Assembly (NCBI GenBank): GCA_030550025.1
Contig: JAUQQC010000002.1
Coordinates: 192,356-256,355 of the forward strand
Reading direction: 5' to 3'
From: Acidobacteriota bacterium
Lineage (GTDB): Bacteria > Acidobacteriota > Blastocatellia > HR10
Length of the DNA stretch: 64,000 nt
Positions 7,688 through 61,063 of the stretch are shown in pieces; position 1 is the first letter of the stretch; every line of letters begins with the position of its first letter. A program made the translations under genes and the position numbers. The notes below the pieces were generated by a model. That model was given only the letters and a program-made list of their open reading frames with translations. It ran no database searches and was not told where the DNA came from.

Positions 7688-8875
7688 ATGGACCAACGGC
7701 GTGATGTGACGTGGATTTCCTCATTGGGCTTCGTCCTTTTCCTCCTGATGGGCGTGGCGTATTGGAGAGAGTGGCGTCCGGAATGGAAGGCCTATCAGGC
7801 GGAGTTTCGGGAGTTAGTCGTTCGGCGCTTTGGTCCGGATCGCGCAGCCCATGTCCCGAAGGGCGTGCAGCAGATTTGGATCCCGCAGTTGGGGCGCGTG
7901 GATCGGTGTGTGACCTGCCACTTGGGGATCGAGTGGAAGGGGCTTGAGAACGCTCCCCATCCGTATCGCACGCATCCGCCGGAGATCTTGCAGAAGCATC
8001 CGATCACTCGTTTCGGTTGCACGATCTGTCATGGTGGGCAGGGATATGCGACCGATATGCGTTCGGCCCATGCGACGCGGATTGAGCATTGGGAGGAGCC
8101 GCTTCTGGCGGCGGAGTTGGGGAAGACCTATCTCCTCAGCGAGAGGAAGGCGTTGCTGCAGATCAACTGTAACATTTGCCATCGGTACGATCGGGAGACG
8201 AAGGGGGCTGAGCTCATCAATTATGCCAAGCGATTGGTGAGGGAGAAGGGGTGTCGCGCTTGCCATAAGATCAACGGACGCGGGGGGGTGATCGGTCCCG
8301 ACCTGACCTACGTCGGGGACAAGTCGCCGGAGCAGTACGACTACGCGCGGCTCGGTGGCGTGAAGTCGGTCTTCGCCTGGCACATCGCGCACTTCAAGAA
8401 TCCCAAGGCGATGGTGGCCGAGACCGTCATGCCCAATTTCAACTTCGGGAGTCGCGAGGCGCAAGCCTTGGCGATGCTGGTGATGAGCTGGAAGCGCGTG
8501 ACCCTCCCGGTCGAATACCTTCCGGGCGCGCAGTGGGCCGATCGGCCGACGCCGGAAGAGTTGGAGCGCGAGCAGCGCATGCTCACGGGCGAAGGGGCTT
8601 TCTTCGTCAAGAAGGGGTGCTTCGTTTGCCACGAGGTCAGTTCGCTCGGCATCGAATCGGCGGCGAAGATTGGCCCCGATTTGGCGAACGCCTACGTGGA
8701 TGTGCAGAGTCGCTTCGGCAAGACGTTGGAGGATTTCCTCATGAATCCGACGGGGACGATGGCCGTCGTGCTCGCGACGCAGATTCCGCTGACGGCGGAG
8801 GAGAAGCGCGAGGCGATTGAGACGCTCAAACTCGCCTATCGGCGGAAGCTCGAGCGCGAGACCGGTCTGAGGTGA
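7688..8875 (+). CDS. Membrane-anchored five-haem cytochrome c
   Basis: A 395-residue protein with one N-terminal membrane segment (WISSLGFVLFLLMGVAYW) and five CxxCH haem attachment motifs: CVTCH near residue 75, CTICH near 111, CNICH near 161, CRACH near 189 and CFVCH near 311. The last two lie in mono-haem cytochrome c-like domains, while the first three are closely spaced. It most likely receives electrons from the Rieske/cytochrome b module and passes them to NosZ in the periplasm. A GGAGGAG site lies before the ATG. The partners are inferred from operon order. Confidence 0.85.
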   Translation: MDQRRDVTWISSLGFVLFLLMGVAYWREWRPEWKAYQAEFRELVVRRFGPDRAAHVPKGVQQIWIPQLGRVDRCVTCHLGIEWKGLENAPHPYRTHPPEILQKHPITRFGCTICHGGQGYATDMRSAHATRIEHWEEPLLAAELGKTYLLSERKALLQINCNICHRYDRETKGAELINYAKRLVREKGCRACHKINGRGGVIGPDLTYVGDKSPEQYDYARLGGVKSVFAWHIAHFKNPKAMVAETVMPNFNFGSREAQALAMLVMSWKRVTLPVEYLPGAQWADRPTPEELEREQRMLTGEGAFFVKKGCFVCHEVSSLGIESAAKIGPDLANAYVDVQSRFGKTLEDFLMNPTGTMAVVLATQIPLTAEEKREAIETLKLAYRRKLERETGLR

Positions 8876-8939
8876 ACCTTTGTGTTCCTCCCCGCGCGCG
8901 GTCCATAGGCGTGGGGAGGTCAGAAAGGAGGGGGCCAAG

Positions 8940-10796
8940 ATGAGAACGAAAATCGCCTTACCCTGGGTGATCGTAAGCCTCGTCGTCGCAGTCGCCGTGA
9001 CGGCCCTTGTGTTCTCCATGCGAGGGCGCGGGCCGAGGGTAGAGCGCGGCGAAGTCGCCGAGGCCGCCGTGGCGACTTATGTGGCTCCGGGGGACTTGGA
9101 CGAGTACTACCTCTTCTACTCCGGCGGCCATTCGGGAAACGTGTTCGTCGCGGGCGTCCCCTCGATGCGCCATATCGCGACGATCCCGGTCTTCACCCCC
9201 TATCCCTCGACGGGCTATGGGTTCGACAAGGAGTCCCGAGAGATGCTCGGCGAATATACGTGGGGGGATGTGCACCATCCGGCCTTGAGCGAAACCAACG
9301 GCGATTACGATGGGCGGTGGCTCTTCGTCAACGACAATGCTAACAATCGCGTCGCGCGGATCGACCTGCGCGATTTCAAGGTGAAGCAGATCTTGGGACC
9401 GATCCCGAACATCTCCGGCTATCACGGGGGATCGTTCGTCACCCCGAACACCGAATACATCCTGGCGGCTTCGCGGTTCTCCGTTCCGCTGCCTAAGGGG
9501 ACGTATGCGCCCGTCGAGGAGTATGCCACGCGATATAAGGGAGTCGTCTCCGGCATCGCCGTGGATCCGAAGACGGGCGAGATGAGCGTGGGCTGGCAGG
9601 TCCTGATGCCGCCGTTCAACTTCGATCTGGGGGACGCCGGCAAGGGGCCGAGCCATGGCTGGGCTTTCTGGACCTCCTACAATACGGAGCGGGCGATCGG
9701 AAAGTTGGAGGTCACCTCCACGCAACGAGAGCGCGACTACATCGCGGCGGTGAATTGGCGGGCGGCCGAGCAAGCGATCCGAGATGGGAAGTTCACGGTG
9801 ATCGGTGGCGTGAAGGTCATTGATCCGAAGACCGTCCCGGGCGTCGTCTATCTCATCCCCTGCTCGAAGAGTCCGCACGGTGTGGACGTGAGTCCAGATG
9901 GCCGGTATATCGTCGCCAGCGGGAAGCTCGCCTCGATCACGACCGTCTTCAACATCGAGAAGATCCTGACCGCGATTCAGAACAAGAACTTCACGGGCGA
10001 GGAGGATGGCATCCCCGTCCTCAATTATGATGCCGTCAAAGATGCGGAAGTGAATGTGGGGTTGGGGCCGCTGCATACAGTCTTCGATGATCGAGGATAC
10101 GCCTACACGAGCCTCTTCGTCGAGAGCGCCGTCGCCAAATGGAAGCTCGGCACCTGGGAGGTCGTGGACAAGATCCCCGTCTCTTACAACATCGGCCATC
10201 TGGCCGCCGCCGAGGGCGATACGGTCAGTCCAGATGGGAAGTATCTGGTGGCGCTCAACAAGCTCTCGCACGGGCGACACTTGGGTGTCGGCCCCTCGCA
10301 GCCGGAAAGCTCGCAGCTCATCGATATCTCCGGCGAGAAGATGAGGCTCCTCTACGACGCCTTCACCGAGCCCGAGCCGCATTACGCGCAGATGATCAAG
10401 GCCGACAAGCTCAAGCCGATCGAAGTCTATCCAAAGGAGGAGAACAAGCATCCGCACGCGATCTGGGACGTCAAGGATGCGAAGATCGAGCGGCGCGGCA
10501 ACGAGGTGGTCGTTAAGATGCTCGCCGTGCGCAGCAGTTTCGAGCCCTGGAAGATCGAAGTGAACCAGGGGGACAAGGTCGTCATCCATCTGACGAACAT
10601 CGAGCAGACGACCGATGAGCTGCATGGTTTCGCCATCGGCGAGTACAACATCAACGTGGTGGTGGACCCGGGCGAGACGAAGACGATCGAATTCGTCGCA
10701 CACAAGCCCGGCGTCTTCCCCTACTACTGCACGAACTTCTGTTCGGCCTTGCATCAGGAGATGCAGGGCTATTTGCTCGTGAAACCGAGATCCTGA
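8940..10796 (+). CDS. nosZ: Nitrous-oxide reductase, clade II (Sec-type)
   Basis: A 618-residue periplasmic copper enzyme that reduces N2O to N2. The seven-bladed propeller domain shows the family DVHHP motif near residue 110 and LFVNDNANNRVARI near 130. The C-terminal cupredoxin domain holds the CuA site CTNFCSALHQEM near residues 596-607, with both Cys, His and Met ligands present. The N-terminus is a plain Sec signal/anchor (KIALPWVIVSLVVAV) with no twin-arginine motif, the hallmark of clade II (atypical) NosZ. I chose the ATG at 8940 because AAAGGAGGGGGCC directly precedes it; in-frame codons upstream to 8880 encode nothing family-like. It sits between the electron-transfer genes and the maturation genes. 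Confidence 0.95.
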   Translation: MRTKIALPWVIVSLVVAVAVTALVFSMRGRGPRVERGEVAEAAVATYVAPGDLDEYYLFYSGGHSGNVFVAGVPSMRHIATIPVFTPYPSTGYGFDKESREMLGEYTWGDVHHPALSETNGDYDGRWLFVNDNANNRVARIDLRDFKVKQILGPIPNISGYHGGSFVTPNTEYILAASRFSVPLPKGTYAPVEEYATRYKGVVSGIAVDPKTGEMSVGWQVLMPPFNFDLGDAGKGPSHGWAFWTSYNTERAIGKLEVTSTQRERDYIAAVNWRAAEQAIRDGKFTVIGGVKVIDPKTVPGVVYLIPCSKSPHGVDVSPDGRYIVASGKLASITTVFNIEKILTAIQNKNFTGEEDGIPVLNYDAVKDAEVNVGLGPLHTVFDDRGYAYTSLFVESAVAKWKLGTWEVVDKIPVSYNIGHLAAAEGDTVSPDGKYLVALNKLSHGRHLGVGPSQPESSQLIDISGEKMRLLYDAFTEPEPHYAQMIKADKLKPIEVYPKEENKHPHAIWDVKDAKIERRGNEVVVKMLAVRSSFEPWKIEVNQGDKVVIHLTNIEQTTDELHGFAIGEYNINVVVDPGETKTIEFVAHKPGVFPYYCTNFCSALHQEMQGYLLVKPRS

Positions 10797-10802
10797 ATCC
10801 TC

Positions 10803-10839
10803 CGGAGGGGGAGCTATTCCCCCCTCCGTCCAGGGGGGA
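10803..10839 (+). promoter_or_regulatory. Two mutually exclusive G/C hairpins covering a ribosome binding site
   Basis: CGGAGGGGG (10803-10811) pairs perfectly with CCCCCTCCG (10820-10828). The same C-run (TCCCCCC, 10818-10824) can instead pair with GGGGGGA (10833-10839), which is the ribosome binding site of the gene starting at 10843. Only one hairpin can form at a time, the arrangement of a translational switch. It might also simply tune expression or stabilise the nosZ 3' end. Confidence 0.5.
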
Positions 10840-10842
10840 GGT

Positions 10843-11391
10843 ATGCAGGAGAAGGGCTTGAAAGGGAAACGGATCCTCATGGTCATTGCGCCGGAAGATT
10901 TCCGGGATGAAGAGCTGTTCACGCCGAAGGGCCTTTTCGAGGCCGAGGGGGCGGAGGTGAAGATCGCCTCGACGCGGCTCGGTCCGGCGCGCGGGATGCT
11001 CGGCGGGAGCGCTTCGCCCGATCTGCTCATCGCCGACGCGCGCGCGGACGATTATGACGCGATCGTCGTCGTCGGGGGGATGGGATCCCCAACGTACTTG
11101 TGGTCGAACGAAACGTTGCATCGGCTGCTGCGAGAGGCGGAGGAGAAGGGGAAGATCATCGGAGCCATCTGCCTCTCGCCAGCGGTGCTGGCGCGCGCCG
11201 GCCTCTTGCGTGGCCGACGGGCGACCGTGTACGCGACGGAGGAGTCCCTGCGCGAGTTGCGACAAGGCGGCGCGCACTATCAAAGCGTGGACGTCGTCAC
11301 CGATGGACGCCTCATCACGGCCAGCGGACCGCAGGCGGCCGCCGAATTCGGGCGCGCCATCTGCGCGCAGCTCGCCGCTCGCTCGGGTTGA
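10843..11391 (+). CDS. DJ-1/PfpI family protein within the nos operon
   Basis: A 182-residue DJ-1/PfpI-fold protein. It shows the early acidic loop PEDFRDEEL near residue 17, the VVVGGMGS strand and the nucleophile elbow GAICLSPAVLA with Cys near residue 109. The residue after the Cys is Leu instead of the His of PfpI proteases, so peptidase activity is doubtful; a glyoxalase, chaperone or redox role is possible. It lies between nosZ and the NosB-like gene, same strand, 46 bases after nosZ, and its ribosome binding site is part of a possible hairpin switch. A role in protecting or maturing NosZ is speculation from position. Confidence 0.78.
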   Translation: MQEKGLKGKRILMVIAPEDFRDEELFTPKGLFEAEGAEVKIASTRLGPARGMLGGSASPDLLIADARADDYDAIVVVGGMGSPTYLWSNETLHRLLREAEEKGKIIGAICLSPAVLARAGLLRGRRATVYATEESLRELRQGGAHYQSVDVVTDGRLITASGPQAAAEFGRAICAQLAARSG

Positions 11392-11421
11392 TGGCGCCCG
11401 CGCGAATATGGATGGAACGAG

Positions 11422-12075
11422 ATGGAACGCTTTTTGGAAACGGCGAATCGTTTCTTCGACCTCCCGCTCGGAGTACGGAGCCGGCTCGTCCTTCTTGTGG
11501 CCGCGCTCGTGCTCATCCCGACATATCTCTTCCCCCTCTGGCAGATGACGCTCTATTCCAACCAATTCCCCGACGGCCTGCGGCTCTATATCTACTCGCA
11601 CAAGCTGGAAGGGGCGCGGTCGCCGAGACGGGATGATCTCCGAGAGATCAATACGCTGAATCACTACATCGGCATGCGCCCGCTTCTGGAGAGCGATTTC
11701 AGCGAATTCAAGTGGATCCCTCTGATGGTCGGCATCTTCTTCATCCTCGCGCTGCGCGCGATCGTGATCGGCAAGATGTCGAATCTCGTGGATACGACCG
11801 TGCTCTTCATGTATTTTGGCCTCTTCTCGTTCTGGAGCTTCTATCGCCGATTGTACGAGTACGGGCACAACTTGGACCCAACGGCGCCGGTGAAGGTTCC
11901 GCCTTTCATGCCACCGCTTTTCGGTTCTCAACAGATCGCGAATTTTCGCGTTCACAGTTATCCGGGAGCGGCGTCGTTCTTCATGGTGGGCTTCTTCCTC
12001 CTCTCGCTGGTGGCGATCTGGCTCGCGACCAAGGAGCGACGGTTCAGGGAGATCAGCCCTGGGGCGATCGGTTGA
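11422..12075 (+). CDS. NosB-like four-helix membrane protein
   Basis: A 217-residue protein with four predicted membrane helices (about residues 20-40, 98-117, 122-144 and 183-203). The first loop, outside the membrane, contains LFPLW, the region DGLRLYIYSHKLEG and the segment INTLNHYIGM, which match the conserved features of the NosB-type proteins found in clade II nos clusters. The exact job of these proteins is not established; they are thought to support electron transfer or NosZ assembly. It lies 30 bases after the DJ-1/PfpI gene and 16 bases before nosD. The family assignment comes from recalled pattern and context, not a search. Confidence 0.65.
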   Translation: MERFLETANRFFDLPLGVRSRLVLLVAALVLIPTYLFPLWQMTLYSNQFPDGLRLYIYSHKLEGARSPRRDDLREINTLNHYIGMRPLLESDFSEFKWIPLMVGIFFILALRAIVIGKMSNLVDTTVLFMYFGLFSFWSFYRRLYEYGHNLDPTAPVKVPPFMPPLFGSQQIANFRVHSYPGAASFFMVGFFLLSLVAIWLATKERRFREISPGAIG

Positions 12076-12091
12076 GGGGATCACAAGGGAT

Positions 12092-13507
12092 ATGCCGGGA
12101 GGCCCGATCTCGCGTACACGGCGGACGGGGGGGGATCGTAGGGCGCTTCGACGATGCGCGTGGGGGGGAGTTGTGCTCCTGGTGGGAATAGGGGGGAGCG
12201 CTGAGGCGAAGACACTTGTTGTGAAGCCGCAGGGCCCGCTGGCCTCCGTCCGCGAGGCGATCCGCCAAGCCGATCCCGGAGATACGATCCGCATCGAAGC
12301 CGGCGTGTATGTGGGCAATCTCCGGCTGGAGAAGCCGCTCGCTCTCGAAGGCGTGGGCAAACCGATCATCCGCGGCGAAGGGAGCGGGAGCGTGATCACC
12401 GTGTTGGCGGATGGATGCGCCATTCGCGGCTTGGTCATCGAGCGGAGCGGTCGGGTGCTCGTCGAGGAGGATTCTGGAATCTTGGTGAAGTCGAGCCGAA
12501 ATCGGATCGAGGAGAACGAGATCCGCGACGTCCTCTATGGGATCTATCTCTATGCCGCCCATGACAACCTCATTCGCGGGAATCGCCTTCGCGGTCGCGT
12601 CGAGTTGGAGTTCGGGGAGAGAGGCAACGGCATCCACATTTGGAATTCGCGCGGCAATCGGATCATTGCCAACGCGATCTCGCACATGCGCGACGGGCTG
12701 TATCTGCAGAACGCCTCCGGAAGCCTGATTCGCGAGAATCGCGTCTTCCAGGTGCGCTACGGCCTCCACTACATGTTCTCGGACGATAACACCATCGAGG
12801 GGAATCGGTTCTTCGACAACGTGGCCGGAGCGGCCATCATGTATTCGCGGCGCATTCGACTGCGGCGGAACATCTTCTTCCGAAATCGCGGCTTCAGCTC
12901 CTACGGCCTCCTCTTTCAAGATTGCGACGATTGCGTCATCGAAGGGAATCTCATCGCCGATAATGCCGTGGGGATCTTCATGGAAGCGCTCCGCCGAAGC
13001 GTCTTTCGGCGAAACCTCATCGCGACCAACGACGTGGCCGTGTATCTCTTCAGCAGCGCGAGCGAGAACATCTTCACGGAGAACAGCTTCGTTCGGAACC
13101 TGAGCCTGTTGCGGGTGATCGGCCGGGGGACGACGACGCGATGGAGCTGGCAAGGGGTGGGGAATTATTGGGACGACTACGAGGGGTTCGACGCGGATGG
13201 CGATGGGATCGGCGACGTGCCGTTTCGCCTTCAGGACCTCTTCGAGCGCTTGGAGGGGAATCATCCGCGCCTGCGGGTATATCTGTCGAGCGCGGCCGCC
13301 GAAGCGTTGGCGTTCGCCGAGAGGGCCTTCCCGATCATCCCTGGGCCGCAAGAATGGGATCCGGCCCCGCTTCGGAAGCCGCGCGCTTTGTGGCCATCGG
13401 AGGCGCTGGAGATCGAGCGCGTTCCATCGTCCCGATGGACGTTCTTGGTCCCGATGATGATGGTCGGCATCTCCGTGGGCCTCTTCCTCTGGGTGAGGAA
13501 GCGATGA
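12092..13507 (+). CDS. nosD: NosD, periplasmic copper-site maturation protein
   Basis: A 471-residue right-handed beta-helix protein. From about residue 95 to 370 it is a run of CASH-type repeats built on the pattern N-x-(I/L/F)-x-x-N (for example GNRLRG, ANAISH, GNRFFD, RNLIAT). The signal peptide is marked by a hydrophobic stretch (GGVVLLVGIGGSAEA), and a C-terminal membrane segment ends the protein (MMMVGISVGLFLW). NosD acts in the periplasm with the NosFY transporter to build the CuZ centre of NosZ, apparently by supplying sulfur. The start codon has little ribosome-binding sequence. Its stop overlaps the nosF start as ATGA. Confidence 0.92.
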   Translation: MPGGPISRTRRTGGDRRALRRCAWGGVVLLVGIGGSAEAKTLVVKPQGPLASVREAIRQADPGDTIRIEAGVYVGNLRLEKPLALEGVGKPIIRGEGSGSVITVLADGCAIRGLVIERSGRVLVEEDSGILVKSSRNRIEENEIRDVLYGIYLYAAHDNLIRGNRLRGRVELEFGERGNGIHIWNSRGNRIIANAISHMRDGLYLQNASGSLIRENRVFQVRYGLHYMFSDDNTIEGNRFFDNVAGAAIMYSRRIRLRRNIFFRNRGFSSYGLLFQDCDDCVIEGNLIADNAVGIFMEALRRSVFRRNLIATNDVAVYLFSSASENIFTENSFVRNLSLLRVIGRGTTTRWSWQGVGNYWDDYEGFDADGDGIGDVPFRLQDLFERLEGNHPRLRVYLSSAAAEALAFAERAFPIIPGPQEWDPAPLRKPRALWPSEALEIERVPSSRWTFLVPMMMVGISVGLFLWVRKR

Positions 13508-14484
13508 TCGAGGTCGAGCATGTGGTGAAGGTGTTCGATGGCGTGCGCGCTGTGGACGACGTCTCTTTTCGCGTGTGCGCGGGCGAGACGTTCGCCCTCC
13601 TTGGTCCGAATGGGAGTGGGAAGACGACGCTCTTGAAGTGCCTGATGGGACTTCTGAAACCGAACGCGGGGCGCATTCGCGTTCGTGGGATCGAAGTGGG
13701 AAGCGATCCGCGCGCGGCCCTGTCGTGGATGAGCTACCTGCCGCAACGCGTCGTCTTTCCCGACGGGCTCACGGTGCGCGAGGTGCTCACGTTCTATGCG
13801 CGATTGCGCGGGGAGCGATCCGAGCGCATCGAGCGCGTGTGTCATCAGCTTCGGCTCGATCTTGGAGACCTCTCGGGTCGGTCCATCGGTGCGCTCTCCA
13901 GTGGCTTGCTGCAGCGGGTGGGGCTGGCGGTGGCTTTGCTCGCCGAGGTCCCGGTCCTCGTCCTCGATGAGCCCACGGTCAGTCTCGATCCCGAGGGGGT
14001 TCAACAACTTCGCTCCATCCTCGCCGAGTTGAGAGGGGAGGGGCGGACGATCCTCTTCTCCTCGCACGTGCTCTCGGACGTCGAAGTCCTCGCCGATCGC
14101 GTCGCCGTCCTCGTCCAAGGGAAGCTGGTCGCCCTCGAATCGGTCGAGGGGTTGCGCGATCAGTGGCGACAGAACGCGCTCACTCGCGTGCACTTGTGGA
14201 ATCCGAGCGAGCGGTTCGTCGAACTCGCCCATCGCCATGGAGCGAGCGAGGCGCGACTTCTTGGTTCCTCTCTCCTCTTCCGATCGAAAGCATCGGATCG
14301 CCTGGCGATCTTGCGCGCTCTGGAGGCAGGGGGAGCGCGGATCGAAACGTTCTGGACGCCGGAGCCGTCGCTGGAGGAGGTCTACTGGAACCATGTGGGC
14401 AAGGGGTCTGCTGGGGGTACTTTTGATCGCGGGGATCGCGTGTCGGAGCCCGCGACCGCAGCCGGTCGAACTACATCCGAGTGA
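13504..14484 (+). CDS. nosF: NosF, ABC transporter ATP-binding protein for CuZ maturation
   Basis: A 326-residue ABC ATPase. The Walker A motif GPNGSGKT lies near residue 34, the LSSGLLQRV signature near 137, and the Walker B VLVLDEPT near 156. With NosY (permease) and NosD it forms the exporter needed for CuZ assembly in NosZ. The ATG at 13504 overlaps the nosD stop by four bases, giving translational coupling; no upstream in-frame codons look like part of the protein. The frame continues for about 30 codons beyond the nosL start, so the C-terminal tail overlaps the coding sequence for the NosL signal peptide, which is unusual. Confidence 0.93.
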   Translation: MIEVEHVVKVFDGVRAVDDVSFRVCAGETFALLGPNGSGKTTLLKCLMGLLKPNAGRIRVRGIEVGSDPRAALSWMSYLPQRVVFPDGLTVREVLTFYARLRGERSERIERVCHQLRLDLGDLSGRSIGALSSGLLQRVGLAVALLAEVPVLVLDEPTVSLDPEGVQQLRSILAELRGEGRTILFSSHVLSDVEVLADRVAVLVQGKLVALESVEGLRDQWRQNALTRVHLWNPSERFVELAHRHGASEARLLGSSLLFRSKASDRLAILRALEAGGARIETFWTPEPSLEEVYWNHVGKGSAGGTFDRGDRVSEPATAAGRTTSE

Positions 14485-14824
14485 CGTCTGCTCGTTCTGC
14501 AAGATGGCGATCTCGGAGAAGCCGTACGCGGCCGAGCTGATCGATCGCGAGGGACGGGTCTTCCCATTCGATGACCTCGGGTGCTTGGTGCGCTTCGCCC
14601 GCGAGCGCGGTTTGCGAGAGCGGGCGACCTTCTTCGTCCTCGACTATGAGACGCTTCGATGGATCGAGGCCGAGCGCGCGATTTATGTCCAAGCGGGCTC
14701 CATTCCGAGCCCCATGCGGCACGGGATCATCGCCGTGAGCGATCGTCCTCGAGCCGAAGCCCTCGCCGATCGCTTCCGCGGTCGGATCGGATCATTCGCC
14801 GACATCTGGACATGGGTCCCATAG
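14393..14824 (+). CDS. nosL: NosL, copper chaperone-like protein
   Basis: A 143-residue NosL family protein, thought to bind Cu(I) outside the cytoplasm and deliver it to NosZ. After a short hydrophobic leader (LLGVLLIAGIAC) comes DVCSFCKM, a variant of the family's CxxCxM copper motif, then the conserved FDDLGCLVRF segment. The leader Cys near residue 17 may be lipid-modified, though the -3 position is Gly, so the lipobox is imperfect. The start lies inside nosF (92-base overlap) and is preceded by GGAGGAGG. The 3' end overlaps nosY by 13 bases. Confidence 0.88.
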   Translation: MWARGLLGVLLIAGIACRSPRPQPVELHPSDVCSFCKMAISEKPYAAELIDREGRVFPFDDLGCLVRFARERGLRERATFFVLDYETLRWIEAERAIYVQAGSIPSPMRHGIIAVSDRPRAEALADRFRGRIGSFADIWTWVP

Positions 14825-15636
14825 CCACGCTCGCCCTCTTCGAGCTGAAGGTTCACGTTCGGAACCGATGGGTGCTCGTGTTCGCCTTCGTCTTCGGCTT
14901 CACGGCGGTGGCAATCGCCGCCTTCGGTTTAGCGACGGCGGGAGTCGCAGGCTTTCAGGGGTTCGCGCGCACGACGGCGAGTTTGCTCAATCTCGCGCTC
15001 TATGTGATCCCGCTCGTCTCCCTGATGATGGGCACGATGAGCTTCGCCGGGGAGAAGAATGCCGGGGAGCTGCTCTTCGTGCAGCCGATCGCCCGCGAAA
15101 GCCTCGTTTGGGGGAAGTTGCTTGGCCTCATGCTTTCGATCGCCATCGCCACGGGATTCGGTTTCGGGCTGGCGGGGATGATCATCGCCGCCCGCGTGGG
15201 ATCGGCCGGGGTGACGCGGTACATGCTCTTTGTCGGGCATGTGTTACTGCTGGCCCTGGCCTTTCTCGCGCTCGGCATACTGGTGGCCATTGCTGGAGGG
15301 AGAAAGCCCCGGGCCTTCGGATACGCCCTCTTCCTCTGGTTCTTCTTCGTGCTCTTCTACGATCTGCTGGTGATCGGGCTGACGTTCCTCGTGCCCGAAC
15401 CGATAGCGAATCGGATGGTCTTCCTCTCCCTCTTTGGGAATCCGGTGGATTTGGTGCGCGTCTCCGGCTTCATGACGTTGGATAACCCGACGATCTTCGG
15501 CGCGGCGGGCGTGATGCTCGTGAGATTCTTCGGCGGAGAGGGGCGTGCGCACGCGATCCTCATGACGGGGACGATGCTCTGGGGGATCCTCCCGGCTTGG
15601 TTGGCCCAATGGCTCCTTCGGCGTCAGGACATTTGA
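14812..15636 (+). CDS. nosY: NosY, ABC transporter permease for CuZ maturation
   Basis: A 274-residue integral membrane protein with six to seven hydrophobic helices. The cytoplasmic signature EKNAGELLFVQPIARESLVWGK (read from residue 82) and the short SGFMTLDNPTIFG loop match the NosY/ABC-2 permease family. It pairs with NosF to move a sulfur-containing factor needed for the NosZ CuZ cluster. The ATG at 14812 overlaps the end of nosL by 13 bases. It is the last gene of the nos run; the neighbouring mnmA gene is convergent, 28 bases away. Confidence 0.9.
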   Translation: MGPIATLALFELKVHVRNRWVLVFAFVFGFTAVAIAAFGLATAGVAGFQGFARTTASLLNLALYVIPLVSLMMGTMSFAGEKNAGELLFVQPIARESLVWGKLLGLMLSIAIATGFGFGLAGMIIAARVGSAGVTRYMLFVGHVLLLALAFLALGILVAIAGGRKPRAFGYALFLWFFFVLFYDLLVIGLTFLVPEPIANRMVFLSLFGNPVDLVRVSGFMTLDNPTIFGAAGVMLVRFFGGEGRAHAILMTGTMLWGILPAWLAQWLLRRQDI

Positions 15637-57268: not shown

Positions 57269-58105
57269 TCACCGTCGCAGGTCTTCGAGCTTGCGCTGCT
57301 CGCTGGCGCTCGGATGGCAGACCATACAGGAGGCTTGGCCGCGTTCTTCGAAGTCGGAGACCAAGGCGTAGGTCAGCCCGCGATCAGACCAGGTGAGGAC
57401 TTTCCATCCATTGATCTCCTCGAAATGGAAGACGAGGCCCTGGGAGCGAATCTCCTCGCCCCCGGAAGGACGAGCGACTGTCTCCGAGGTGACCAGCAGC
57501 GAAATCGGGCGATTTCGCATGCGGTAGGTGATGTAGGCAGCGTAGTCATTTTTGAATCCCACCAGGCGCGCCCCCTCCAGTTGATAGGGCTTCGGTTGGC
57601 CGGAGAGTTCGCGAAAGCTCGGGAGCTTCAGGTTGAAGGGAACCTTATCGGCGAACCAGGCCGAGATCTCTTCGGGCGATTGGCTCCGAATCTCAAGCGG
57701 GAGCTGTCCGCGCACCCATCGTTGGTGCGTATCCGCGGCCAGGAGGGCAAATTCCGAGCGGTGGTTTGCGCGATCGACTGCCGAACGACGAACGTTGTCA
57801 TGAACGAGGACGCGGACGACAAACGCCGCCAGGATTACTGTGGCCAAACCGAGCGCCCATTTGAAGACGCGGATCCGGGTCCCGGACGGACGCGCCCACA
57901 ATTGCTCGATATGCCGGCGGACGTTCTCGGGCACGTCGTAGAGCGGCCGTGCGTGCGCGAGCAAGGCCATGAAATGCTGCTCGCGCTCCAAGCGCGCCCG
58001 GCATTCCGCGCACTCAGCGATATGCATCTCGACCTGCCGTCGCTCCTCGCCCTGCAACTCCTCGTCCAAATACAGCTCGATGAGATGGACGACGTGCTCA
58101 CCCAT
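57269..58105 (-). CDS. Membrane anti-sigma factor with N-terminal zinc finger and C-terminal CxxCH
   Basis: A 278-residue predicted anti-sigma factor. The N-terminus has the zinc-binding ASD-type motif HIAECAEC near residues 28-35. A single membrane helix follows at about 82-102 (WALGLATVILAAFVVRVLV), and the periplasmic domain runs to the end. There it carries CMVCH near residue 262, a haem-c attachment-type motif. It overlaps the sigma factor gene by 8 bases, the usual arrangement for a sigma/anti-sigma pair. The cytoplasmic zinc finger should hold the sigma factor; the CxxCH could sense redox or haem. Haem binding is not proven by the sequence. Confidence 0.82.
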   Translation of the reverse strand: MGEHVVHLIELYLDEELQGEERRQVEMHIAECAECRARLEREQHFMALLAHARPLYDVPENVRRHIEQLWARPSGTRIRVFKWALGLATVILAAFVVRVLVHDNVRRSAVDRANHRSEFALLAADTHQRWVRGQLPLEIRSQSPEEISAWFADKVPFNLKLPSFRELSGQPKPYQLEGARLVGFKNDYAAYITYRMRNRPISLLVTSETVARPSGGEEIRSQGLVFHFEEINGWKVLTWSDRGLTYALVSDFEERGQASCMVCHPSASEQRKLEDLRR

Positions 58106-58736
58106 AGGTCTCTCCTGCCTCGCGAATCCTCCCGCTCGCCGTGCGTCCTTCAGTATCCGACGACGGACTCGCGACGGATTCCCGATAGAGGGTCAGCTGC
58201 TTCCGCAGTTCGGCGCGAGCGCGACTGATGCGCGACATGACCGTCCCCGCCGGACAGCCAATGATCGCCGCGATCTGGCTGTAGCTGAATCCTTCCAGAA
58301 ATCGCAAGACGATGACCTCGCGGTAGACCGTGGGCAGACTCTCGATCGCACGGCGAATCTCTTGTCCGAGCGCATTCTGTTCATGCACCACGTCCGGGCG
58401 ATGCCGTTCGTCGGCGAGGAGGCGCCATCCGATTCCCTCGTCCTCCTCTTCGGCATTCAGCTCTTCGGTATCTGGCTGTCGCCGCTTCCGCCTCCGGTCG
58501 TTGATCCAGATGTTCCGCATGATCGTGAAGAGCCATGCCCTGACATCGCCCGTCGGCAATTTCTGCGCCGCGCCGCGAAACGCGCGAAGATAGGTCTCCT
58601 GGACTAAATCTTCCGCCTCCGTTCGATCTCGCGTGAGCGCCATGGCGAAGTTGTACAGCCCTTCCAAATACGCCAACGCTTGGCGCTCGAATTCGCGCTC
58701 GGCATGATTCCGCGCTCGCCATCGTCGAATCATCAT
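58098..58736 (-). CDS. ECF RNA polymerase sigma factor (RpoE-like)
   Basis: A 212-residue sigma-70 family extracytoplasmic-function factor. Region 2 shows FAMALTRDRTEAEDLVQETYLRAFRG near residues 31-56 and WLFTIMRNIWINDRRRKRR near 68; region 4 shows LPTVYREVIVLRFLEGFSYSQIA near 133 with a helix-turn-helix, ending SRISRARAELRK. It probably turns on an envelope or redox stress response when released by the anti-sigma factor downstream. Its start has two ATGs. The target genes are not identified; the subtilisin gene upstream is on the same strand and could be one. Confidence 0.9.
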   Translation of the reverse strand: MMIRRWRARNHAEREFERQALAYLEGLYNFAMALTRDRTEAEDLVQETYLRAFRGAAQKLPTGDVRAWLFTIMRNIWINDRRRKRRQPDTEELNAEEEDEGIGWRLLADERHRPDVVHEQNALGQEIRRAIESLPTVYREVIVLRFLEGFSYSQIAAIIGCPAGTVMSRISRARAELRKQLTLYRESVASPSSDTEGRTASGRIREAGETYG

Positions 58737-58864
58737 CAGTCCTCACCACGGGGACGTCTTCCGACGATCTGCGCCCGGTCCGCCTCTCGATGAGCGCCGC
58801 CTCGCATCAGTTTCGCTCGCTCACTGAGAGAACACAATTGAGCGCGCCGTTTATTCCCCAACTT

Positions 58865-58876
58865 CTGAGGCCTCAG
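58865..58876. repeat. 12-bp perfect palindrome at the subtilisin stop codon
   Basis: CTGAGGCCTCAG is self-complementary and spans the minus-strand stop codon of the subtilisin gene. It may be the stem of a short 3' structure, but there is no T-run. Confidence 0.35.
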
Positions 58877-60708
58877 GGAATGATGACCTCCACCTGGTTC
58901 GACTCGGCCATGTTCCCAGCGTTGTCGAAGACACGAATCAGGAAATAGTACGTCCGCGATGGGAGATTCGATGGAATGACCCACGTCTCGCTCGTTCCCG
59001 CCGGCTGCGGGCGCGGCGGGTCCTTCACCCGAACGGCGAAGCGTAAGGTGCCCGCCGTGATCGGCGACACGCTATAGCGAATATCGTAGAAAGCTGCCTG
59101 CCCCGCGGACCCGTCATCTCCCGTCGCTGTCCAGGTGAGCGTAAGCGGAGTGACGTTGCTCAGCAAGCGCAGATCGGTGATCGGAGCCGGTGGGATCTCA
59201 TCCCGATCGAGCGCGCGAAAGGCGTTCACGCGTCCGCCGGAGACGAGTTTCCCCGCGAGTTCTGGGATCCGATCGGCGTTGGCCAAAAGACGGATTTTCA
59301 CCTGAATCGGCGTGCTCTCGGGATACGCCGAGAAGATCAGCGCGGCGATGCCACTCACGATGGCCGCGGCTGGGGAGGTCCCATTTCCCGTGAGGATACC
59401 ATCGCTGCGCCCCAGCTCTGCCGAAAGATTCCGCGTCGTGAGACCAATGATCGCCATGCCCGGCGCCCCAACGTCCACGTTCACCCTCCCGTAATTGGAA
59501 AAAGAGGTGAGCAGATTGAACCGATCCGTCGCCGCCACGGCGACGACGTTGTCGAGTCGCGTCGTGAGATATGAGGGGAGCCGAGGGGTGATGTCATTGT
59601 TTTGCCCATCGTTTCCGGCTGCGGCGATGGCAAGGATGCGCGCATCGTTGGCCGCGGTCAACGCACGTTCGAGCCCTGGGCTTTCCCCTGGTCCACCGAA
59701 GCTCATGTTGATGACGCGCACGCCAAACGGAGCCATCGCCACGGCGTAGTTCACAGCTTGAATGATCGCGGACATCTGGAAATTTCCTCGCTCGTCCCCC
59801 GCCTTCAAGGGCAGGATGCGACTTCCCCAACTGACGCCGGCGATGGCCAAAGCGTTATTGGTCTCGGCCGCTGCTAGGCTGCACATCCACGTCCCATGCC
59901 CATTTTCATCATCCGGATCGTTATCCCTGCGGAGGAAATCCCAGCCGGAGACATCATCCACGAAGCCGTTGGCATCATCGTCCATGCCATTGTTGGGGAT
60001 CTCTCTGGGATTGACGAAGAGCTTCCGCGCCAGATCGGGATGCGTGGCGTCAATGCCGGTGTCAATGACGGCGATGACTACGTCCGAACTCCCCGTGGTG
60101 AGGGCCCATGCTTCCGGGGCCCAAATATCTGCGCGTCGCTCCGGGAAGACGTTGCGGTCGCGGAGATACCATTGGGAGCTGAAGAGCGGATCGTTCGGCA
60201 CAATTTGGGAACGGAGCACGAGATCGGGCTCGGCGAATTCGATCATCGTCGGATACTGGCGCATGAGCATTTCGGCCAACCGTTGAGGATCAATGGGGCG
60301 GGCGAATCGGAGCAGGACCATACGGTTCAGGCCGTGACGCTCCAGAAGGAGTGCCGCTTCCGAGAGCGAGCGCGGAGCCCGCCGTGCGAGCGCTTCGCTC
60401 GCTCTTTGACGATCGCGTGGGAGGGGAAGCGCTGGCGCCAGGCGCACGATCTCACGAAGCCCGGCTGTTTTGGCGAGGTCTTGAAAGACCGCTTCCGGCT
60501 GCTCCTCGGCCGCCGCTGCAGCTTCGATCGGGAGCCGCACGCCCGAGCGGAAGCCGACAATGAGATGCGTGGGCACATAATGTGGCCGATTCGACTGGGC
60601 GAAAGCCAGCGGGGTGACTACGTGGGCCGGACGCCTCATCACTCCCCCAGTGGCGGTCCACAAAAGGAGGAGAACGTTGAGGGCAGCACAAAGTCGCTTC
60701 CAGGTCAT
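58873..60708 (-). CDS. Secreted subtilisin-family serine protease (S8)
   Basis: A 611-residue peptidase with the complete catalytic triad: Asp in VIDTGID near residue 216, His in NGHGTW near 269 and Ser in GNGTSPAAA near 443. The N-terminal 40 residues form a signal peptide, followed by a prodomain-like region with PTHLIVGFRSG, and a fibronectin III-like domain lies after the catalytic part (near residue 520). It should degrade protein outside the cell. I chose the ATG at 60708 because the signal peptide begins there; in-frame ATGs at 60747 and 60789 are alternatives, and the promoter at 60799 would make 60789 a leaderless start. Confidence 0.87.
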   Translation of the reverse strand: MTWKRLCAALNVLLLLWTATGGVMRRPAHVVTPLAFAQSNRPHYVPTHLIVGFRSGVRLPIEAAAAAEEQPEAVFQDLAKTAGLREIVRLAPALPLPRDRQRASEALARRAPRSLSEAALLLERHGLNRMVLLRFARPIDPQRLAEMLMRQYPTMIEFAEPDLVLRSQIVPNDPLFSSQWYLRDRNVFPERRADIWAPEAWALTTGSSDVVIAVIDTGIDATHPDLARKLFVNPREIPNNGMDDDANGFVDDVSGWDFLRRDNDPDDENGHGTWMCSLAAAETNNALAIAGVSWGSRILPLKAGDERGNFQMSAIIQAVNYAVAMAPFGVRVINMSFGGPGESPGLERALTAANDARILAIAAAGNDGQNNDITPRLPSYLTTRLDNVVAVAATDRFNLLTSFSNYGRVNVDVGAPGMAIIGLTTRNLSAELGRSDGILTGNGTSPAAAIVSGIAALIFSAYPESTPIQVKIRLLANADRIPELAGKLVSGGRVNAFRALDRDEIPPAPITDLRLLSNVTPLTLTWTATGDDGSAGQAAFYDIRYSVSPITAGTLRFAVRVKDPPRPQPAGTSETWVIPSNLPSRTYYFLIRVFDNAGNMAESNQVEVIIP

Positions 60709-61063
60709 TGCGCAGACCCTGAAATCCCCAAGTCGCTCACCCATCCTGATGAAGATTCGCGCGCGGCTACGGCGCCGAGCCTGTCTCATCGCTCGGTGAG
60801 TGTAGCATCCGCCGAGAGCGTCCACAAGCCTATCACGCGAGCGACGGGGAAGACTGGGCGAAAGAGCACCGCCGAGGATCTCACACATTACATCAACATT
60901 GTGGGCTAACTGAGGAAAATGGATTCGCGTTTGGGGGAGAGCCGGGCGCGCCTCGATTCATCATAAGGCTCAGCAACATAGGAACTTAATTTGGAATCGG
61001 AGGCTCCTATCGGATGGCTCGTGCTGGATGTGACAAGAAAAGGGCGTCGCGTCCAAAATCTCC
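60709..61063. other. Intergenic region upstream of the subtilisin gene
   Basis: Most of this stretch shows no coding support. Positions 60709-60789 could be an extended N-terminus of the subtilisin on the minus strand. From 60889 on there is no frame with a start, ribosome binding site or family resemblance. Base composition is less GC-rich around 60890-61060, as expected for control DNA between divergent genes. Confidence 0.5.
60799..60827 (-). promoter_or_regulatory. Candidate subtilisin promoter
   Basis: On the minus strand, TTGTGG (60827-60822) is followed by a 17-base spacer and TACACT (60804-60799). The -10 lies 9 bases before an in-frame ATG at 60789. Confidence 0.4.

Follow-up and report, generated by a model that had tools for sequence, protein, structure and literature searches.

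The ECF sigma/anti-sigma gene pair described here probably serves as a peroxide-responsive switch: as far as can be judged from the genomes, the exported domain of the anti-sigma factor would carry a haem c, sense periplasmic peroxide (or the redox state resulting from it), release the sigma factor and so induce peroxidases. The pair lies within a stretch of 64,000 nucleotides from an Acidobacteriota genome, referred to here as the window, and its features, all on the minus strand, are the following.

58831 to 58857, minus strand: GGAATAAACGGCGCGCTCAATTGTGTT, a conserved ECF-type promoter situated ca. 95 bases ahead of the start codon of the sigma gene
58098 to 58736, minus strand: ECF sigma factor, 212 aa, overlapping the anti-sigma gene by 8 bases
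57269 to 58105, minus strand: anti-sigma factor, 278 aa, with a zf-HC2 domain at the N terminus, a single predicted membrane helix and a putatively exported C-terminal domain containing CxxCH
58001 to 58024, minus strand: HxxxCxxC (H28, C32 and C35), zinc site of the sigma-binding domain
57791 to 57859, minus strand: putative membrane helix, about residues 83-105, a hydrophobic stretch picked by eye within the predicted helix 78-113
57725 to 57727, minus strand: His127, common to both groups of relatives and not specific to the haem form
57425 to 57427, minus strand: His227, candidate distal haem ligand
57314 to 57328, minus strand: CMVCH (C260-M-V-C263-H264), putative haem-c attachment site, invariant in alignment A1

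The anti-sigma ORF starts inside the 3' end of the sigma gene, and the sigma gene is found upstream of the anti-sigma gene at nearly all the inspected loci of relatives. Pfam recognized sigma-70 regions 2 and 4 in the sigma factor and zf-HC2 at residues 4-36 of the anti-sigma factor (PF13490, 36.2 bits against a cut-off of 22.2), the latter being the only Pfam match to this protein at E values up to 1, with none to Cache or DUF3365. The three zinc-site residues are invariant in A1, an alignment of 18 rows with members down to 35% identity with the window protein. Among solved structures, the best matches to the N-terminal part were RsiW and RsrA by sequence and RsiW by fold. With zf-HC2, HxxxCxxC and a coupled ECF gene all present, the anti-sigma factor can be assigned to the ZAS type, with sigma binding and inhibition as putative functions. 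These are the traits shared with RsiW, RsrA and ChrR (class I), from which the window protein differs by a c-haem motif in a C-terminal domain predicted to be exported. In RsrA it is the zinc domain that senses thiol stress, and in ChrR a cupin-like domain senses singlet oxygen. In the structure model of the window protein a single hydrophobic helix separates the zinc domain from the CxxCH, a topology that would place the motif outside the membrane, and the C-terminal domain is beta-rich and ends in CMVCH. The predicted fold of residues 142-265 is closest to the C-terminal domain of RseB/MucB and to TM1622, with a middling Z of about 7. However, RseB and MucB are separate periplasmic partner proteins of RseA and MucA, unlike the domain found here, and no haem motif is known in them. 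The sigma gene is immediately preceded, on its own strand, by a Subtilase-family protease gene (58873-60888, minus strand), with a homologue in the matching position at two other loci of the same genus (L031 and L032).

The sequence-only reading had noticed a CMVCH near residue 262, at the periplasmic end of the anti-sigma factor, and had made its case depend on conservation of the motif in the family. The motif is indeed there, at residues 260-264, and it was kept by all 18 homologues with E < 1e-30 in a search of 58 related genomes, none of them having lost a Cys. S259, C260, V262, C263 and H264 are invariant in A1, and such conservation across homologues rules out a chance CxxCH. A scan of wider genome contigs gave 23 loci, mostly from Acidobacteriota MAGs, some being labelled Deltaproteobacteria, Binatia, Tectomicrobia or Vicinamibacteria. 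In a search with the family profile, CxxCH was present in all 31 rows with scores of 197 bits or more (some genes counted twice, the same gene being in two collections) and, at lower scores, in just two, L053 (a fragment, with CLVCH) and L070. Ordinary RsiW-like relatives have no Cys at the motif position, where many of them resemble SDLN..EL..F. A tree of 52 rows, read without a fixed root, separated the 35 CxxCH rows from the 17 ordinary ones by a branch supported at 95/98, several long branches leaving the details unsure. The haem set was obtained from 39 rows by removing four partial duplicates, and the ordinary set from 31 rows by removing 13 copies of the haem form truncated at locus ends, together with L053. 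The presence of CxxCH in 35/35 of the former is by construction, as the group was defined by the motif.

Because CxxCH is a trait of the family and its bearers form one clade apart from the ordinary relatives, it is likely that haem c is covalently attached to the anti-sigma factor at this site. The case is circumstantial but good, and combines the exact CxxCH, the invariant His, a predicted position beyond the membrane helix and the Ccm/Ccs genes. Cytochrome c maturation is represented in the genome by CcmF/NrfE-like, CcmA, CcmB-like and CcsB genes (the CcsB and CcmA models over their cut-offs, CcmF/NrfE and CcmB below them), and PF01578 has five matches over cut-off. The best candidate for a second haem ligand appears to be His227, present in 32 of the 35 CxxCH-bearing relatives versus none of the 17 ordinary ones. 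His127 was rejected as a haem-specific ligand, since the ordinary relatives keep it too (16/17, versus 35/35 of the CxxCH-bearing ones). The structure model is unsure around the motif, with a mean pLDDT of about 60 over residues 251-278. Both the conservation and the maturation genes lend good support to the haem-c site proposed earlier for the exported end, and the redox response attributed to it is plausible.

We regard it as decidedly improbable that the CxxCH is instead a disulfide switch or a metal site (for example, binding zinc together with His227 or His127). It is true that CxxC pairs are common redox switches, that the N-terminal zinc domain of RsrA is redox-active and that the NCBIfam RsrA model (TIGR03988) matched the anti-sigma factor, although at 35.9 bits, below its cut-off of 62.5. 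However, neither a disulfide nor a metal site fits well with the invariance of His264 and the exact CxxCH order in every close homologue, nor with the predicted export of the domain in a genome equipped for cytochrome c maturation.

The promoter of the sigma gene has a characteristic form, GGAATAA followed after ca. 13 bases by (G/T)TGT; in 32 aligned sites the consensus was GGAATAA, T17 and C18, then (G/T)TGT with A or T after it. In relatives, the intergenic region between the sigma gene and the divergently transcribed gene contains two GGAATAA copies arranged head-to-head, as mirror images. Of 27 distinct genomes or loci, 17 have the strict pattern ahead of the sigma gene, and the target gene is preceded by it in 24 of 26 cases, where dinucleotide shuffles gave expected values of 0.1 and 0.08, respectively; several of the 10 sigma genes without it show a GGAATT form. 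The pattern was derived partly from the same linked regions that were later counted, so that targets unlinked to the sigma gene provide the sole independent, and therefore fair, test. Over 17 genomes, a loose version of the pattern had 85 matches versus 47 for the reversed control, i.e., mostly chance, which argues for a small regulon; a large one was rejected on the same count. The window's genome has two strict matches, including the site of the sigma gene itself, and a slightly looser pattern is needed to recover the site of the di-haem cytochrome c peroxidase (CCP) gene described below. A scan for generic ECF promoters (GAAC/GTC) gave scattered matches only.

Control of peroxidase genes by this sigma factor is strongly supported by the genes that carry the predicted promoter. 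Three gene families recur divergent from the sigma gene in the flanked loci, namely cluster 2 (10 loci), a TAT-type metallophosphoesterase (nine loci) and a SoxA/TsdA-like cytochrome c (seven loci). In L034 and L040 Pfam assigned cluster 2 to CCP_MauG, the di-haem peroxidases, and it identified the other two families as Metallophos and SoxA-TsdA_cyt-c; a variant of cluster 2 with two CxxCH motifs (L045 type) had weak NCBIfam matches to MauG-like models. G014 and G022 have, in the divergent position, a gene for a catalase-peroxidase (KatG) with an apparent signal peptide, the G022 copy being matched by the NCBIfam KatG model. Regarding the unlinked targets, the orthologous CCP gene of the window's genome is located on a different contig (G000:C18) and has the promoter GGAATAAATCTCCGCCCTCGGTGTGTAT upstream. 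G001, G002 and G003 each possess the two sites, that of sigma and that of CCP, while in G004 (73% complete) the CCP site was present and no anti-sigma gene was found. Hence, within the genus, the unlinked CCP gene has the promoter in 4/4 genomes that possess the pair, and the sigma and CCP sites are the only ones conserved among the five same-genus genomes, the other four matches not being shared. In G016 the entire operon of CCP, metallophosphoesterase and SoxA-like genes is unlinked and the promoter site is present. GGAATAA precedes 14 of the 15 CCP orthologues (at least 59% identity), the remaining one having GGAATAG, and none of seven more distant CCP paralogues from the same genomes. As a contrast we used 29 genomes picked for the absence of a close anti-sigma orthologue (one of them, G042, does have a distant CxxCH anti-sigma ORF). 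Twelve of these have a CCP-like gene, at 14 loci, and GGAATA was found upstream of none of the 13 with readable upstream DNA (L179 begins at a contig edge).

A few more loci extend this picture. G029 has a vanadium-dependent bromoperoxidase-like gene (L119, G029:C104, 3903-6089, minus strand) with a GGAATAA site ca. 340 bases upstream. In G010, which has no anti-sigma orthologue, the operon of CCP, metallophosphoesterase and SoxA-like genes adjoins a PerR-like gene of the Fur family (L194, G010:C38:50000-60000; PerR was the best NCBIfam match, below cut-off), in what seems to be a regulator swap. In G042 (G042:C8, L193/L019), a long ORF with an odd upstream frame ends in the distant CxxCH anti-sigma domain and lies directly upstream of the CCP gene. 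Other loci do not fit a peroxidase regulon. At four Binatia-type loci (L037, L042, L044 and L048) the divergent gene codes not for a peroxidase but for a cupredoxin-like protein, a label given by eye from its HxxM-type end. There, cupredoxin-like, metallophosphoesterase, SoxA-like and SoxYZ-like genes make up the divergent operon, and where the contig extends far enough, genes for multihaem cytochrome and cbb3 oxidase are found further along. No target was found at L038, and no CCP gene near the more distant CxxCH anti-sigma genes (L060 to L062, family f16 of the phylum).

The leading hypothesis for the signal is peroxide, drawn from the targets only. CCP, KatG and bromoperoxidase, the last one found in G029, have hydrogen peroxide as a common substrate, and the PerR-like gene adjoining the CCP operon of G010 and the CxxCH anti-sigma ORF preceding the CCP gene of G042 point in the same direction. 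The system might work as follows: the Ccm/Ccs machinery would attach haem to the CxxCH of the anti-sigma factor after export; periplasmic hydrogen peroxide, or an oxidation and ligand change of the haem caused by it, would alter the sensor domain; on the cytoplasmic side, the zinc domain would then free the sigma factor, directly or via proteolysis; and the freed sigma factor would induce its own operon and that of the periplasmic peroxidase. The haem could also act as a maturation checkpoint, with the anti-sigma factor folding only during haem c attachment and the sigma factor reporting the state of cytochrome c assembly and not the presence of peroxide. CxxCH motifs do occur in many of the target proteins themselves, but KatG, bromoperoxidase and cupredoxins need no Ccm, and making more c-type proteins upon failure of haem attachment would be a poor response, so that we find this barely credible.

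PerR and OxyR, both known sensors of peroxide and regulators of peroxide-consuming enzymes, are cytoplasmic; the site of action of di-haem peroxidases, in contrast, is the periplasm. The likeness to PerR is in the target, as shown by the PerR-like gene at the equivalent CCP operon of G010; the difference is that the putative sensor of the window system faces the periplasm. If the peroxide reading is correct, the pair does outside the membrane what PerR and OxyR do in the cytoplasm, and gives a direct answer to how the genes of periplasmic peroxidases are tuned to periplasmic peroxide. We advance more tentatively, at slightly less than even confidence, that this is the first haem-c anti-sigma factor, a self-contained periplasmic sensor of peroxide that arose by the grafting of a cytochrome-like haem site onto an RsiW-like sensor domain and that directly controls a dedicated ECF sigma factor with a small periplasmic peroxidase regulon. 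No haem-c anti-sigma factor was found in the literature by title and abstract (the main 2021 ECF reclassification paper and its tables being outside the scope of this search), and a covalent-haem sensor appears to be of a kind not previously described for anti-sigma regulators. Through it, ECF signalling would gain a new sensory chemistry, and with its conserved promoter and small regulon the system lends itself to tests in a reconstituted two-gene reporter. The closest parallel is found in Cache sensor domains that, according to a 2026 preprint, acquired CxxCH from cytochromes (sCache_heme, DUF3365; GSU0582 and GSU0935; PMC12889525). The gain of a CxxCH by a sensor domain that is exported, or in our case predicted to be, is common to both, and ours would be the second case of a sensor domain gaining a cytochrome motif. 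However, the window protein lacks a Cache or DUF3365 match, its model is nearer to the small domain of RseB/MucB than to Cache (with the middling Z given above) and its output takes the form of an anti-sigma factor; PMC12889525 makes no use of the word "sigma".

Some of these c-haem Cache sensors bind NO, as stated in that preprint (PMC12889525). Along these lines, the anti-sigma factor may carry haem c and yet respond to nitric oxide, to oxygen or to the redox state of respiratory c-type cytochromes, the peroxidases then forming part of a wider respiratory response. The cytochrome, cupredoxin and cbb3 oxidase genes of the Binatia-type divergent operons, as well as the presence of a nos cluster in the window, would agree with such a response. 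We nevertheless consider it rather unlikely, given that the nos genes have no promoter copy nearby and that the substrate shared by KatG, CCP and bromoperoxidase is hydrogen peroxide. The link drawn in the sequence-only reading between the haem, nitric oxide and the nos operon found no support. Across the window GGAATAA-N-TGT occurs only at the sigma gene's own site, with no copy near the nos cluster, and control of the latter by this sigma factor was rejected on these grounds; the promoter-linked targets are instead peroxide-consuming enzymes and periplasmic redox proteins. The nos cluster itself (7688-15633, plus strand) comprises a cytochrome c gene, a nitrous oxide reductase-like protein, NosD and an ABC ATPase and permease, and the reductase-like protein combines a propeller repeat with a cupredoxin domain.
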